From Chloroflexota bacterium (GTDB taxonomy: Bacteria > Chloroflexota > Dehalococcoidia > Lucifugimonadales > JACPCL1), in the NCBI GenBank assembly GCA_016179765.1, contig JACPCL010000029.1, positions 136,333 through 200,332 of the forward strand: a stretch of 64,000 bases of DNA. The letters run 5' to 3'. Positions 47,460 to 63,117 of this stretch are shown here, piece after piece. The notes under the pieces were generated by a model, which saw nothing but the letters and a program-made list of their open reading frames with translations, was not told the DNA's origin and made no database searches. Numbering within the stretch: the stretch's first letter is position 1; each line of letters starts with the position of its first letter. The position numbers and the translations under genes are program-made.

Positions 47460-47468
47460 CGCCCCTAG

Positions 47469-47658
47469 CAGGGTGCTGAAGAACACCCCCAAACCTCCTC
47501 GTCCTTCAAGGAAGCCCCAGAGGGGCTTCCCTTTCCAAGGGGGTTCAAGGTATCCTTCGGCTGAAGGATGGATTTGTATCTGGGGGACACCCCCAGACCC
47601 CAGGCATCCGCCTGAGGCGGACGCCCCTCTGCACTCCTCATTTTTCCACAGCCTCCTG
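47469..47658. repeat. Composite MITE-like repeat between argS and the recombinase
   Basis: CAGGGTGCTGAAGAACACCC and TTTTTCCACAGCCTCCTGG are the imperfect ends. Inside are GGAAGCCCCAGAGGGGCTTCC, TCCTTCGGCTGAAGGAT, TATCTGGGGGACACCCCCAG and CATCCGCCTGAGGCGGACG. The 417-nt gap 47442-47858 holds no gene; GTTTTGAGATAACTTG near 47743 is an isolated end of the other MITE family. Confidence 0.7.
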
Positions 47659-56267: not shown

Positions 56268-56880
56268 ACGTCCCCGGAAAGAAATAGTGCCGGATTATAC
56301 CGGGAGGAGAGCAAGATGTCACCGGCCGGGTGTAGCTGTTAGCCGGCTTTGTGGGGCACGTTTAGGTGAGGGGAGCGGGCGTCGGGCTGGCCCAGGGTGG
56401 CAGCCAGCGCAAGCAGCGTTTCGTAGCGCGGGGACTGCTCGCCGCCACGTTCGTCCCGATGCAATCGGGACTCAGGGCTTCGGCTCACTCACTGCGGACG
56501 AGGGTGACGCGTCCGCATGGGGATTTACCCCCTACCTCAATCCTCCCTCGCAAGGGGGGAGGAGGTTATTGCCCTCATTTTCGTAGGAATGACACGGGGG
56601 ATTTACCCTCTACCCTAGCCCTCCCCCGCAAGGGGGGAGGGGATGACGGGCGAGGCAGCGCCTCGCCCCTACGAGGATTTACCCTCACCCTCTATCCCTC
56701 TCCATCAAGGGGGCCTTGCCCTAAAAGTCCTTTTGACCTAACCCCCTAGCCCCCTTCCCTGAAGGGAAGGGGGAAGAATTGTATCTGGGGGACACCCCCA
56801 GACCCCCAGCGGGAACTGACGTTCCCTGCACCTTCCTGACTTTTGAGGCAACGCCCGTCAAGGGAGAGGGGCAGGTCATG
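56268..56880. repeat. Repeat-filled gap between the R-M system and polA
   Basis: No gene is visible in 613 nt. 56520-56650 repeats GATTTACCCYCTACC and CCTCCCCCGCAAGGGGGGAG; 56655-56680 has CGAGGCAGCGCCTCGCCCCT. 56743-56846 is a complete composite unit (TTGACCTAACCCCCTAGCCC, CTTCCCTGAAGGGAAGGGGG, TATCTGGGGGACACCCCCAG, GGGAACTGACGTTCCC, TGCACCTTCC). That same unit occurs, mutated but in order, inside polA at 58507-58627. Confidence 0.75.
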
Positions 56881-59800
56881 CTACTCCATCTCGCCCCAGT
56901 TCTGGCCCAGCTTGACCTCTACCTTGAGGGGCACGTCTAGCTGCATGGCGGAGGGCATGAGGTCCAGGACGAGGCCCTTCATGGCTTCAAGCTCGTCGGG
57001 GGGGACCTCAAAGATGAGCTCGTCGTGGACCTGGAGCAACATGCGGCTGCGGAGGCGGTCGGTGGCCATCTGGCGGTGGAGGTTGATCATGGCGAGCTTG
57101 ATGAGGTCGGCGGCGGCGCCCTGGACGGGCATGTTGATGGCCATGCGCTCGGCGGCCTGGCGGACCTGGAAGTTGGAGTGGGCGATCTCTGGGATGTAGC
57201 GTCGGCGGCCCAGGAGGGTCTCCACGTAGCCCAGGCTGCGAGCTTTTCGCTTGGTCTGCTCTATGTAGTCCAGGATGCCGGGGTACTTGGCGAAGTAGCT
57301 GTTGATGAACTCCTGGCTCTGGTGCATGTCCATGTCGGTCTGCTGGGACATGCCGTGGGCCGATAGGCCGTAGATGATGCCAAAGTTCATGACCTTGGCC
57401 ATGCGCCGCATGTCCGGCGTGACCTGGCCCAGGGGGACGCCGTAGACCTGGGAGGCCGTGGAGGCGTGGATGTCCTCGCCGCGGTGGAAGGCGGCCAGGA
57501 GGCCTGGGTCCTGGGAGAGGTGGGCCAGGACGCGCAGCTCCACCTGGGAGTAGTCGGCGGCCAGGAGGCTCCAGCCGTCCGGGGCCAGGAAGGCGCGGCG
57601 GACCTCCCTGCCCAGGTCGGTGCGGATGGGGATGTTCTGGAGGTTGGGGTCGCTGGAGGAGAAGCGGCCGGTGGCGGAGCCGACCTGGTTGTAGCTGGTG
57701 TGGATGCGCCCGGTGCGGGGATTGACGAGGGTTGGCAGAGATTCCAGGTAGGTGGACTTGAGCTTGGTGAGCTGGCGGTACTCCAGGACGAGGTCCACCA
57801 CGGGATGGGCCTTGCGCACCTCCTCCAGGACGGCGGAGTCGGTGGAGTAGCCGGTTTTGGTGCGCCTGGGTGGGGGAAGGCCCATCTCTTTGAGCTTGGC
57901 GGGGGGCAGGAGCTTTTCAAAGAGCACCGTGGCAAGCTGCTGGGTGGAGTTGATGTTGAACTGCTGGCCGGCCTCCTGGTAGATGGCCTCCTCCAGGGTG
58001 TGAATCTGCTGGGTGAGGGCCTCGGACATGCGGGTGAGGCGGGCCTTGTCCACGAGGATGCCGTTGCGCTGCATCGCCACCAGGACGGGCACCAGGGGGA
58101 GCTCCACGTCGCGCAGGATGGCCTCGCCGTGGACGCTGGCTACCAGGGGTTCCAGGGCGAGGCGGAGACGCCAGGTCATGTCGGCGTCGGCGGCGGAGTA
58201 GCGGGCCGCCTGGTCTATGGGCGCCTGGGCAAAGGTGATCTGCTTGCGTCCGCTGCCGATGAGGGCGCTGATGGGGGTCATCTCTTCGTTGAGGAGCTGG
58301 AAGGCGAGCGCCTTGAGGCCGATGGCGCTGCGGCCCGCGATGTGCGCGCCGATCATGGTGTCAAAGTCCAGGCCAGCCACGTCAACGTCGTTTTCCGCAA
58401 GCACCATCAGGTCAAAGTTGGCGTTGTGGGCGGTCTTTTTGACGGCTGGGTCCGCAAAGAGGGGTTTTATCGCTTCCAGCACGTCGGCCAGAGGCAACTG
58501 TAGGGGCGCTGACCTAACCCCCTCTGGCTCCCCCTTCCCTATGAGGGAAGGGGGAGGACTATTGTCAGGGGACACCCCTGAAATCCCGGCAGGGAACCCT
58601 GGGTTCCCTGCACCCTCCCGGTTTTCTTGGGAGATGATGTGTCCTACGGGCACGTACCAGGCGTGATGGGGCCTGGCGGCGAAGGAGAGGCCGACCAGGC
58701 GGGCGAGCATGGGGTCAAGGTTATCGGTCTCGGTGTCAAAGGCGAAGGAGCCGGCGGCGCGGAGGTCGGCCAGCATGGCCGAAAGGGCCTCGGCGGTGGC
58801 GACGGTGACGTAAGAGACAGGGGCGGACGCATCGGTCGCGCCCCTACCGGGGGCGGGAACTTCCAGGAGCATGCCCTGGACGGGGGGCAGGGCGATGGGT
58901 AGGGGCGCAGCATGCTGCGCCCCTACGGGGTCAGACGGCGCGCCGGGAGACGCGGGCGAGGCGACCTCGCCCCTACCGGGCGGGATGCGGGAGACGATGC
59001 TGGAGAACTCCATCTCGCGCAGGACGGCCAGGACATCGTCGCGACGGTAGTCGCCGAAGCGCATGCGCTCCAGGTCCAGGGCCACGGGCACATCCTTGAC
59101 GATGGTGCAGAGGCGCTTGCCCTGGACGGCCTGAGCTTGATGCTGCCGCAGGAGGTCCTGGATGCGCGGGGGCTTCACTTCATCCAGGCGCTGGTAGAGG
59201 GCCTCCAGGTCGCCGAAGTCGGTGATGAGCTTGATGGCGGTCTTGGGCCCGATGCCGGGCACGCCTGGGATGTTGTCGGAGGTATCGCCGGTGAGGGCTT
59301 TAACGTCGCACTGGGAGGCGGGACCCAGGCCGCCGTACCGCTCGCGGACGGCGGCCTCGTCGTAAATCTTGCGCTCCTGGACGGAGTAGTGGAGGGCGAC
59401 GCGCACCCAGGGAGTAACGAGCTGGAGGGTGTCGGTGTCGCCGGTGAGGATGACGGTCTCTAGCTGGGCCTGTTCGGCTTGCTGGCAGAGGGTGCCCAGG
59501 ACGTCGTCGGCCTCGTAGCCCTCCGCCTCATAGATGGGGATGCGGAAGGCCTCCACCAGGCGACGCACCTTGGGGAACTGGGCCTGGAGATCGGGCGCGG
59601 TCTCCGGGCGCTGGGCCTTGTACGCCTGGTATTCCAGGTGGCGGAAGGTGGGAGTGGGGAGGTCAAAGGCGATGGCGACGTGGGTGGGATGCCACTCGGA
59701 GAGGGCCTTGAGAAAGGCGTTGACGAAGCCGTAGACGCCGCTGACCACTTCGCCGGAGCGTGTGGTGAGGGCGCGGGTGCGCTCAATGGCGTGGTAGGCG

Positions 59801-59889
59801 CGGTGGACCATGGCGTGGCCGTCCATGAGCAGGAGGAGGGGCTTCTCATGGGGCAGGGGGGCCTGGGCGCTGGTGTTGCGGTTGGTCAT
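56881..59889 (-). CDS. polA: DNA polymerase I with two in-frame repeat insertions
   Basis: The protein is 1002 aa from ATG 59889; the open frame upstream is repeat sequence. Residues 1 to about 295 are the 5' nuclease (LLLLMDGHAMVHRAYHAIER, IPGVPGIGPKTAIKLITDFG). About 360-590 is the 3'-5' exonuclease with intact Exo I (FAFDTETD), II (NANFDLMVL) and III (YSAADADMTW). The rest is the polymerase: LLAADYSQVELRVLAHLSQD (motif A), MRRMAKVMNFGIIYGLSAHG (motif B), LLQVHDELIFEVP (motif C). Residues about 303-358 and 422-462 are not polymerase sequence but translated intergenic repeats. The enzyme serves Okazaki-fragment processing and repair, and all three active sites appear preserved. Confidence 0.95.
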   Translation of the reverse strand: MTNRNTSAQAPLPHEKPLLLLMDGHAMVHRAYHAIERTRALTTRSGEVVSGVYGFVNAFLKALSEWHPTHVAIAFDLPTPTFRHLEYQAYKAQRPETAPDLQAQFPKVRRLVEAFRIPIYEAEGYEADDVLGTLCQQAEQAQLETVILTGDTDTLQLVTPWVRVALHYSVQERKIYDEAAVRERYGGLGPASQCDVKALTGDTSDNIPGVPGIGPKTAIKLITDFGDLEALYQRLDEVKPPRIQDLLRQHQAQAVQGKRLCTIVKDVPVALDLERMRFGDYRRDDVLAVLREMEFSSIVSRIPPGRGEVASPASPGAPSDPVGAQHAAPLPIALPPVQGMLLEVPAPGRGATDASAPVSYVTVATAEALSAMLADLRAAGSFAFDTETDNLDPMLARLVGLSFAARPHHAWYVPVGHIISQENREGAGNPGFPAGISGVSPDNSPPPSLIGKGEPEGVRSAPLQLPLADVLEAIKPLFADPAVKKTAHNANFDLMVLAENDVDVAGLDFDTMIGAHIAGRSAIGLKALAFQLLNEEMTPISALIGSGRKQITFAQAPIDQAARYSAADADMTWRLRLALEPLVASVHGEAILRDVELPLVPVLVAMQRNGILVDKARLTRMSEALTQQIHTLEEAIYQEAGQQFNINSTQQLATVLFEKLLPPAKLKEMGLPPPRRTKTGYSTDSAVLEEVRKAHPVVDLVLEYRQLTKLKSTYLESLPTLVNPRTGRIHTSYNQVGSATGRFSSSDPNLQNIPIRTDLGREVRRAFLAPDGWSLLAADYSQVELRVLAHLSQDPGLLAAFHRGEDIHASTASQVYGVPLGQVTPDMRRMAKVMNFGIIYGLSAHGMSQQTDMDMHQSQEFINSYFAKYPGILDYIEQTKRKARSLGYVETLLGRRRYIPEIAHSNFQVRQAAERMAINMPVQGAAADLIKLAMINLHRQMATDRLRSRMLLQVHDELIFEVPPDELEAMKGLVLDLMPSAMQLDVPLKVEVKLGQNWGEME
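58507..58627. repeat. Intergenic repeat inside polA, exonuclease domain
   Basis: On the reverse strand GGGAGGGTGCAGGGAACCCA, GTTCCCTGCC, AGGGGTGTCCCCTGA, CCCCCTTCCCTCATAGGGAA and GGGGGTTAGGTCA follow the same order as the intergenic unit at 56743-56846. It adds about 40 codons between Exo I and Exo II without a stop. Confidence 0.85.
58820..58990. repeat. GTAGGGGCG hairpin repeats inside polA, interdomain linker
   Basis: Three hairpin-type units lie in the linker between the 5' nuclease and the 3'-5' exonuclease: GGTAGGGGCGAGGTCGCCTC near 58980, a perfect 28-nt palindrome with arms GTAGGGGCGCAGCA near 58900-58928, and GGTAGGGGCGCGACC near 58840. The same GTAGGGGC hairpins occur in gaps at 5389, 32528 and 36689. 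Confidence 0.8.
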
Positions 59890-59955
59890 ACCTAACCCCC
59901 TTGCCCCTTCCCCTTCGGCTGCGCTCAGGGCAGGCTCTAAAGGGAAGGGGGAAGA
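59890..59955. repeat. CCTAACCCCCTT repeat abutting the polA start codon
   Basis: ACCTAACCCCCTTGCCCC begins at the base next to the polA ATG; GGCTGCGCTCAGGGCAGGCT is nested inside, then AAAGGGAAGGGGG. On the coding strand it places GGGGGTTAGGT directly before ATG, so the repeat provides the ribosome-binding region. Confidence 0.75.
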
Positions 59956-59985
59956 TAGGGACGAAGATAGAGACAAGGCGGCACC

Positions 59986-59994: not shown

Positions 59995-60141
59995 GGGGGT
60001 GGTAAACCTGTTCCCCTGCATGTCTCGTCACGCAAAAGAAGACGTGATAGGATGCTGGCAGACACCTCCTGGCGCGATTCCCCTGTTTGGCCCATTAGGG
60101 AATGGGTACCTCCCTGGTGCGCCCATGTGGAAAGGAGGAAG

Positions 60142-63117
60142 ATGCCGGGCCTTGCATTTCGCACCTGTCCAGTGCTTGTGGGACGCGAGGCAGAGCTGGC
60201 GAAGCTTAATGACGTGCTCCACACCGCCATTGGAGGCCGTTGCGTGCTTGCGGCGGTCACCGGAGAGGCGGGTGTTGGAAAGAGCCGGCTGCTACGGGAA
60301 GCGGCGGCGGCAGGACGCGAGTTCCAGGTGCTGGCCGGATATTGCCGGGAGCAGGACCGTGACTACCCCTTCGCGCCTTTTGTAGAAGCCCTCCGGGAAC
60401 ACCTGCGCCGCAGTGGCGCCGCCGTGCGCATTCCCCCCGGGCCTGAAAACCACGCCCTGGCGTCCCTGCTGCCCGAACTGGCAACCCACCTCCCAAGTCC
60501 ACCCCTTGAATTGCCGCCGGAGCAGGAGAAGAGGCGGCGCTTTGAGGCGGTGACGGCCTTGCTGCGCCACTTGACGGCGAGACAACCCATATTGCTGCTC
60601 CTAGAAGACCTCCACTGGGCTGACACCACCAGCCTTGAGCTCCTTGAACTCTTGACCCGCAGGCTGGCCACAGACCGGGTCGCCATCATTGCTACAGCGC
60701 GCACTGATGAGCCCGGCAGCACGTTCGGCAGCGCCTTGGTGAGGCTACGCCGGGAGCGCCTCCTGGATGTGGAGATAGCCTTGGAGCCATTAGACCGGCA
60801 GGGCGTCTCGCTCATGCTGGAGCATATGCTCTCGCTCTCGCTATCTTCCGTGGTTACCCAGGCAGTGCACGAACGGACGGGCGGCAACCCCTTTTTCGTA
60901 GAGGAGCTGATAGCTGCTGCGCCGCCCGAGGACGCCACAGCCTGGCTGTCTCAGGAGGCCGCCGTACCCAAGACGGTGCGCGACACAGTACTCCAGCGGC
61001 TTCAACGCCTGGATGCCAATGTGCGGTTCGTCGCGAACGTTGCGGCGGTGTGCGGCCTGCGCTGGCCCTTTGAGTTGCTGGTGGCAGCCTGCGGTCTTCC
61101 AGAAGAGGACGTTCTCACCGCGGTGGAAGTCCTGGTGGAGCAGCAGGTGCTGGTAGAATGGCCCTCTGAAGGTCAGGCGGAGTTCGCCTTCCGTCATGCC
61201 CTGGTGCGAGAAGCCATCTACAGTCGCTTGCTCCTTCCCCGGAGACGGGCGCTTCACCGGTTGGTCGGAGAGGTTGGAGAAGCCCAGAAGGAGCGGCTGG
61301 GAGATGGGGACCTGGGCTACCACTTCCATGCTGGGCAGCAGTGGGAAAAGACGCTCCTCTATGCTGCGCGCGCTGGAGAGGCCGCCCGCGCGGTGCATGC
61401 CACCGCGGAAGCCCAACGGCACTACCGGCGGGCGCTGGACGCTGCAAAGGCGCTGCACACTCCCTCAGCGTCAGACCTGCACCGTCGGTGCGGCCAGTGC
61501 CTGGCCCTCCTTGGAGCTTTTGAGGCAGCAAAGGAGCATCTAGAGGAGGCGCTGCAAGGGGCGCGCCTCCAGGGTAACCTGCGACTGGAACAGGAGGCTC
61601 TTTACGACCTTGCTGGGCTGTACGCCAGCCGTGACTATAACCTGGGCAGGCAGATGGCTGAAGAGGCCCTGGCGCTGGCACGGAGAATCGGTGACTCACT
61701 GGGGGAGGCCCTGGCCCTGAACCGGCTTGGCAACATCCTGACAAACCTGCTTCATTTTGCGCAGGGGCGCGCCCTTCATGAGGAGGCGCTGCAGCGCTTC
61801 GCCGTGCTTAATGACCGCTGGGGGAGCGCTGACAGCCTTGACCTGATCGGTATGGCCCGGTATCTGTCTGGCGAGGTACCGGAGGCCCGGGCAGCCTTTG
61901 GGCAGGCTGCGATGATGTTCCAGGACTTGAACGACCCAGAGCGGGTGGCATCTGCCCTCACCAGCAGCGGCCTGTATCTGGCCGTCCTTGACGGCCCTTG
62001 CGGTACCGATGCTTCTCCTTCAAAGTGCCGCCAGGAGGTGGAGGCCGGCCTAGCCCTGTGCCGCCAGCTTGGCTGGCGCGCCGGCGAAATTTACGCCCTG
62101 GTAGCCCTTGCCTGTTTGGACGTAGCGGAAGGGCGGCATAGCGGAGCCCTACGGCTGGGGGAAAGTGCCCTTGCAATGGCTACGGAGATTGGGCACCACC
62201 AATGGAGCATCATCAGCCTGCTCACCCTTGGGCTTGTCCATGCTGACCTTTTTGACTTCCAGGGCGCGCTGTCGCACTTCAGCCCCGCTCTAGAAAGCGC
62301 CCGTGCTGGCGGGTTCTCCCAGTGGACGGAGCGCCTGGAGGCATGGGACGCGTATTGCCGCAGCAGGCTTAGGGTAGCTGGGGCGGTTATTGCCCTGCAA
62401 GGGATGGCGCCCGCTGACTTCCGGCCTTCCACCATAGGACAGCGGCGCGCACTCTGTGGGCTTATCCACCATCAGCTTGCAGCGGGGCGGGCAGCACAAG
62501 CCCTTGAGATGCTGGAAGGGATGCTGACAGGGGCCTCTGGCCCCAGGCCGTCGCCTCTGCTGCTGCTGTACGCCCAGGGGCTGGCGGCGGAAGGCAAGCG
62601 TGATGAGGCAGAGGCCACCCTTCTTGAGGCGCGCCGCTTGGCGCTGGAGTTCGGCCCCCGCTCCGTGTTGTGGCAGTGCGCTGCGGAGCGTTCGGCCCTG
62701 TGGCGAGACCAGGACGGACAGACCAGCAGCCAGGAAGCCCGCCTGGCCCGTACCGAGGTTGCCGCACTGGCAGCGTCGGTGGGGAGTGAGTCCCTACGTA
62801 GCGCGTTCCTCCATGCGCCTCAGGTGCGGCCCTGGGCAGGACCAGGGGGACGCAGCCGCACTGCCCTAGCCCCAGGCGTCCCGGGAGGGCTCACGGCGCG
62901 CGAGGGCGAGGTGGCGGTCTATGTCGCTCAGGGGCTCACCAATAAAGGGATAGCAGAACAACTTACCCTCTCGGAGAAAACCGTAGAGATGCACGTCAGC
63001 AGTTGTCTTGGCAAGCTGGGCTTCACATCTCGCACGCAACTGGCCGCGTGGGTCGTGGGTGAGCGCCTTGCCTCTATGTCCCAGGGAGCCGGCCAGCATC
63101 CTTACAGGGACGGGTAA
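60142..63117 (+). CDS. Large AAA/TPR/LuxR-type regulator
   Basis: The protein is 991 aa from ATG 60142 with AAAGGAGGAAG upstream. Residues about 1-300 are a STAND-type ATPase: VLVGREAELAKLNDVL, Walker A TGEAGVGKSRLLREAA and Walker B LLLLEDLHWADTTSLEL. About 390-850 are TPR-like helices (KEHLEEALQGARLQGNLRLE, GEALALNRLGNILTNL). The C-terminus is a LuxR HTH: GLTAREGEVAVYVAQGLTNK, IAEQLTLSEKTVEMHVSSCL and GKLGFTSRTQLAAWVV. Such regulators sense a signal through the ATPase/TPR part and activate nearby genes. The methyltransferase gene 92 nt downstream is a candidate target. Confidence 0.92.
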   Translation: MPGLAFRTCPVLVGREAELAKLNDVLHTAIGGRCVLAAVTGEAGVGKSRLLREAAAAGREFQVLAGYCREQDRDYPFAPFVEALREHLRRSGAAVRIPPGPENHALASLLPELATHLPSPPLELPPEQEKRRRFEAVTALLRHLTARQPILLLLEDLHWADTTSLELLELLTRRLATDRVAIIATARTDEPGSTFGSALVRLRRERLLDVEIALEPLDRQGVSLMLEHMLSLSLSSVVTQAVHERTGGNPFFVEELIAAAPPEDATAWLSQEAAVPKTVRDTVLQRLQRLDANVRFVANVAAVCGLRWPFELLVAACGLPEEDVLTAVEVLVEQQVLVEWPSEGQAEFAFRHALVREAIYSRLLLPRRRALHRLVGEVGEAQKERLGDGDLGYHFHAGQQWEKTLLYAARAGEAARAVHATAEAQRHYRRALDAAKALHTPSASDLHRRCGQCLALLGAFEAAKEHLEEALQGARLQGNLRLEQEALYDLAGLYASRDYNLGRQMAEEALALARRIGDSLGEALALNRLGNILTNLLHFAQGRALHEEALQRFAVLNDRWGSADSLDLIGMARYLSGEVPEARAAFGQAAMMFQDLNDPERVASALTSSGLYLAVLDGPCGTDASPSKCRQEVEAGLALCRQLGWRAGEIYALVALACLDVAEGRHSGALRLGESALAMATEIGHHQWSIISLLTLGLVHADLFDFQGALSHFSPALESARAGGFSQWTERLEAWDAYCRSRLRVAGAVIALQGMAPADFRPSTIGQRRALCGLIHHQLAAGRAAQALEMLEGMLTGASGPRPSPLLLLYAQGLAAEGKRDEAEATLLEARRLALEFGPRSVLWQCAAERSALWRDQDGQTSSQEARLARTEVAALAASVGSESLRSAFLHAPQVRPWAGPGGRSRTALAPGVPGGLTAREGEVAVYVAQGLTNKGIAEQLTLSEKTVEMHVSSCLGKLGFTSRTQLAAWVVGERLASMSQGAGQHPYRDG

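Follow-up and report, generated by a model that had tools for sequence, protein, structure and literature searches.

DNA polymerase I in the 64,000-nt stretch analysed here (the window) is encoded by a gene that contains DNA recurring between other genes, which raises the question of how such sequence came to lie within a conserved reading frame and how it is kept there. An earlier note, made from the sequence alone, had described polA as invaded twice, in frame, by tolerated and mobile intergenic repeats whose open frame may be under selection. The reading favoured here, to which a probability of about 0.85 was assigned, is tolerated, translated insertion of palindromic repeats, with purging of damaging copies and reuse of permissive sites. 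The features of the locus are collected in Table 1.

Table 1. Features of the polA locus, in window coordinates
Feature	Position	Strand	Remark
polA, DNA polymerase I, 1002 aa	56881-59889	-	ATG at 59889, stop at 56881
Exo I motif DTET, intact	58726-58737	-	conserved alignment columns 385-388
Exo II motif NANFD, intact	58411-58425	-	conserved alignment columns 489-493
Interdomain linker, residues 303-358, three GTAG-type hairpins	58816-58983	-	pLDDT <50 at 308-354
Perfect 28-nt GTAG palindrome GTAGGGGCGCAGCATGCTGCGCCCCTAC, read as VGAQHAAPL	58899-58926		arm 12, loop 4
GTAG hairpin GTAGGGGCGAGGTCGCCTCGCCC, read as (G)RGEVASP	58954-58976	-	related unit in sister L071
Third, imperfect GTAG-type linker hairpin, read as GRGATDASAP	58819-58847		sequence
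Insert 1, residues 418-462, composite palindromic repeat, Exo I-Exo II interval	58504-58638	-	missing in compared PolA
Hairpin module A of insert 1, CTCCCCCTTCCCTATGAGGGAAGGGGGAG	58528-58556		arm 13, loop 3
Hairpin module B of insert 1, TCAGGGGACACCCCTGA	58565-58581		sequence; paired in RNA centroid
Hairpin module C of insert 1, GCAGGGAACCCTGGGTTCCCTGC	58589-58611		arm 10, loop 3
Intergenic composite-element copy directly downstream of polA	56734-56836		match to insert 1
Repeat abutting polA start codon, 5' flank, not protein by homology	59891-59957		

The polA gene product

The product was a full-length DNA polymerase I in which Pfam models marked the polymerase domain and both exonuclease domains (5'-3' and 3'-5'), and its residues 19-1001 matched the NCBIfam models PRK05755 (1062 bits) and TIGR00593 (962 bits). 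It was aligned with 51 rows of the order, in which some organisms occur twice (two collections). The exonuclease and polymerase motifs were all intact in this alignment, as the earlier note had held, and the Pfam exonuclease match was split, its best stretch beginning at residue 462. Comparison of the core with the same-genus sister G003 (locus L071, about 75% identical) gave dN of 0.08-0.12 and dS of 0.37-0.47, a ratio of about 0.17-0.25; as core dN lies far under dS, the gene is under purifying selection. An AlphaFold model based on 26 sequences had a mean pLDDT of 85.6, with values below 50 only at residues 1-14, 308-354 and 424-459 and a normal Pol I fold elsewhere. The latter two intervals, which fall in the two repeat segments, are predicted to be disordered. 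The top structural matches were the Klenow fragment and other Pol I structures, with a TM score of 0.91 to 1d8y (normalised by target). Beside polA, at 60052-63117 of the window, lies a large ORF of 1021 aa with, by eye, the look of an ATPase/LuxR-type regulator.

Repeat segments within polA

Neither segment interrupts the polA frame, in agreement with the claim that they are read through without stops. Insert 1 was missing from all 51 other aligned PolA rows and from the protein of the sister, in which the site reads GH-TDGA-QLP, a loop of four residues. Its DNA folds into three successive hairpins that are more stable than those of shuffled sequences (z -3.98), while two control segments of polA folded no better than their shuffles. 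The proposed match to the intergenic unit downstream of polA was confirmed with adjusted limits, the matched part being 58510-58618 rather than 58507-58627: over 109 query positions it is 75% identical to the downstream copy (E 1.8e-9), and the intergenic stretch 56743-56850 folds into three hairpins like those of insert 1. The best match in the same genome was at C22:85177-85260 (88% over 85 nt, E 2.4e-22), and about 40 places (83 matching pieces) were found there in all. A half GTAG unit (58500-58509) adjoins insert 1, which is not itself a GTAG-tagged unit of 20-40 bp; it shares about 109 nt, with three hairpins, with the other copies. Matches to this composite element were found in 17 of the 98 genomes of the order, in a patchy distribution. 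The flanks of its copies diverge at both ends, and the site in the sister is too diverged for a target-site duplication of the MITE kind to be read; no such duplication was seen elsewhere.

The linker hairpins are short, carry GTAG at the foot and occur in many copies, as GTAG REPs do, and the perfect palindrome has tens of near-exact copies in its own genome; the earlier note had described the cluster as being of a type found in several gaps. Both segments had been put forward as candidates for unique insertions. Residues 418-462 proved unique among the proteins compared, but in the linker the sister holds partly different repeats, namely two LPPSxGEGDREGEV units together with one of GTAG type akin to GTAGGGGCGAGGTCGCCTCGCCC, which also match many places in the genus. 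A more distant PolA (G037/L045) has a palindrome with 18-bp arms at the same linker position. The description "invaded twice" thus holds for the two repeat segments, but not as a count of events, each segment being made of several palindromic units (three in insert 1 and three in the linker). Further repeats were seen on both sides of polA, at 59891-59957 and 56700-56880; with these flanking repeats the locus has four repeat clusters.

Survey of the genome

Gene interiors, delimited by gene calls from a simple hexamer model that had long ORFs as its training set, were compared with intergenic sequence in 0.83 Mb and then in 1.22 Mb (53% of the genome). Called genes contained 32 repeat blocks and codon-shuffled genes none, and the repeat matches are therefore not due to chance. 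Blocks at N-termini (probable start mis-calls), a probable false fusion (ORF C22:66871-69747), a weak second block in nrdJ and two short proteins were set aside. The ORF taken as a fusion (L118) appeared by eye to join a CaiB-like protein, by way of a repeat, to an N-terminal half that looked unlikely. Twelve genes with inserts were left in the 53% of the genome covered: polA, glycerate kinase, pheT, nrdJ, recJ, an sbcC/rad50-like gene, an OmpR-type regulator, xerC/D, alaS, mfd, a YdiJ-like FAD oxidase with two insert regions, and cdsA, where the insert lies near the N-terminus. The inserts in glycerate kinase, the FAD oxidase, the sbcC-like gene, alaS, xer, the regulator and cdsA were assessed only by DNA matches to intergenic repeats and by family assignment. 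High-copy 12-mers marked 250 repeat intervals between genes and only 16 within gene interiors. Per base this is a 60-fold difference, which is overstated because the 12-mers were picked partly as mostly intergenic, from the first sample. Since gene calls require an intact frame, genes broken by repeats are counted as intergenic, which biases the frame retention statistic.

Comparison of insert sites among relatives

The insert sites of recJ, pheT, nrdJ and mfd were compared with those of ten relatives. In RecJ, the sister G003 has a site exactly empty of the insert, and at the insert residue the congener G001 carries another repeat, of the GTAG type. In this G001 gene (L167), a repeat of the CAGGGCAGGCT type appeared to be nested in the loop of a GTAG hairpin and read in frame. 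The PheT insert is common to the present genome (G000) and G003 and absent from G001 and more distant relatives; because of this distribution it is probably older than the split of G000 and G003 and would have stayed open since. The NrdJ insert was absent from the aligned relatives; these included no congener, as NrdJ itself had no match in G003 and G001 and only a fragment in G002. In Mfd, all four congeners (G000, G001, G002 and G003) have repeats after EGW.M that differ in content and range in length from roughly a dozen to about 75 residues, and none were found at this site in G015, G040, G022, G053 and G062. The Mfd repeats of the congeners perhaps derive in part from a shared old insert, and the sharing of sites in Mfd, PheT and part of the PolA linker may reflect one old, diverged insertion rather than repeated landing.

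Open frames and mobility

The suggestion that the repeats are selected to keep an open frame found no support. Long intergenic copies of the composite element had 1.77 of 6 frames open, against 2.50 of 6 in dinucleotide-shuffled sequences, and intergenic copies of the other families were close to their shuffles. The frames used in genes were not more disorder-promoting than other open frames (P = 0.41), so that no signal of a preference for such frames was obtained, and the GTAG and composite families each use more than one frame in genes. An apparent orientation bias of the GASLK family disappeared because the alaS and cdsA inserts are the opposite orientation of the palindrome. The open frames call for no more than the purging of copies that break the frame, and tolerated, nearly neutral insertion with purging fits the data better than an element adapted for translation.

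The view of the repeats as tolerated, mobile insertions in another phylum stands as regards in-frame insertion outside the phylum of Rickettsia; mobility is suggested by copy number and by the differing occupancy between congeners, no transposase having been identified. PF01797 (Y1_Tnp, RAYT/IS200 type) had no match in four genomes of the genus, which are 77-95% complete and hence do not prove its absence, and matched 3 of the 15 genomes searched, all of other genera. With no PF01797 match in these genomes, mobilisation by a RAYT was set aside.

Interpretation

The insertions are best read as tolerated, translated, non-autonomous palindromic repeats (REP/MITE-like). Several abundant families of short hairpin-forming repeats would reach new places in the genus, and most copies that hit genes would be purged. 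Survivors would be those in a surface loop or interdomain linker, with a stop-free frame and a net length divisible by three, and they would be read as disordered peptide. A loop lengthened in this way may become a permissive site on which further, different repeats land or replace the earlier one, and different repeats would occur at the same residue in related species because the lengthened loop stays permissive. On this model polA would have two permissive sites. Selfish DNA appears to be accepted by these proteins in the form of extra, floppy loops, given that repeats are found in frame and that different ones occupy the same spots in related species.

It is very improbable that the segments are ordinary lineage-specific protein sequence that resembles repeats by compositional chance. 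The linker is variable in every relative, and a few of them (L043, L074 and L079) have a longer GH..QLP loop, but the 88% identity to a distant place, the roughly 40 genomic matches and the tens of copies of a perfect 28-nt palindrome are not expected of such sequence, shuffled genes lack such blocks, multi-copy matches lie outside genes and the sister loop has only four residues. Misassembly or chimerism at repeats was judged hardly more probable, even though repeats commonly cause misassembly and the genomes are metagenome assemblies, this one a 53-contig draft: on either side the flanks and the reading frame continue unbroken, no other copy is closer than 88% to the polA insert, which has diverged from them all, and separate genomes of the genus have repeats at the same PolA, PheT, RecJ and Mfd sites. 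Removal or skipping of the inserts at the RNA or translation level, in a bypass-like manner, would be suggested by the strong mRNA hairpins of insert 1; skipped sequence, however, need be neither open nor a multiple of three, and all inserts found keep the frame open, an outcome that gene calling favours. This explanation is likewise highly improbable.

Insertions that are adaptive, with repeats in replication and repair genes altering activity and being selected (the mutator idea of PMC3733652), are somewhat less improbable yet still quite unlikely. Five or six of the 12 hit genes belong to DNA metabolism (polA, recJ, sbcC-like, mfd and xer, plus nrdJ), many intragenic REPs were reported in replication and repair genes (PMC3733652), and the PheT insert predates the split of G000 and G003. 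Against this, hit genes are long (median 830 aa, above a length-weighted draw, P 0.0006), and multidomain length is therefore a confounder of the excess of repair genes; no frame preference was seen; and repeat content per site differs between congeners, which suits neutrality. The excess, which echoes PMC3733652, is accordingly treated as a lead only. It is a doubtful, though not negligible, extension that replication, repair and recombination proteins hold stable entry ports where unrelated palindromic repeats repeatedly land, swap and nest, as in Mfd (four congeners), RecJ (two) and the PolA linker (two), and that genes of DNA metabolism are preferred, through gene-linked targeting or favoured altered activity.

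Relation to known repeat systems

In-frame insertion of palindromes is already known from Rickettsia, and GTAG repeats inside genes, that of DNA polymerase I among them, have also been published. Rickettsia palindromic elements (RPE) of 100-150 bp occur in ORFs at solvent-exposed places without breaking the frame, and orthologs with inserts at the same locus have been described (PMC10969869, PMC3767692). The present repeats are like RPEs in behaviour, inserting into ORFs in frame with the gene kept intact. The peptides encoded by RPEs are, however, described as conserved, while in the present case one family is read in more than one frame and most copies are intergenic. GTAG REPs are GTAG-tagged hairpins that are mostly intergenic, with some in ORFs including DNA polymerase I and repair genes (PMC3733652, BMC Genomics 2013). 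They have been reported in Chloroflexi and at about the same recB site in two Xanthomonas species, and their association with RAYTs is frequent but not universal (PMC3733652). In contrast to that description, several unrelated repeat families coexist here, insert 1 is a three-hairpin composite and not a GTAG unit, one site differs in its repeats among four congeners, and the genus yielded no RAYT-type transposase. Wolbachia palindromic elements and coding palindromes of Nematomorpha mitochondria (PMC6649704) are likewise reported to lie inside protein genes, in different organisms. A literature search gave nothing relevant on palindromic repeats in Dehalococcoidia. What is new is the non-GTAG composite element, the several unrelated families in one genus and the apparent turnover at shared permissive sites, where congeners differ in the repeat at one residue.

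These data document a route by which selfish non-coding DNA enters the protein sequence of conserved genes in an uncultured Chloroflexota genus, and comparison of congeners catches several of its stages, from the empty site through a single insert and an older, shared one to a cluster of inserts. They also yield a set of proteins that can be tested, and a caution to annotators who would read such residues as functional.

At 47465-47601 of the window, close to where an ORF resembling arginyl-tRNA synthetase by eye begins, an over-long ORF reads through a cluster of repeats that is probably non-coding.
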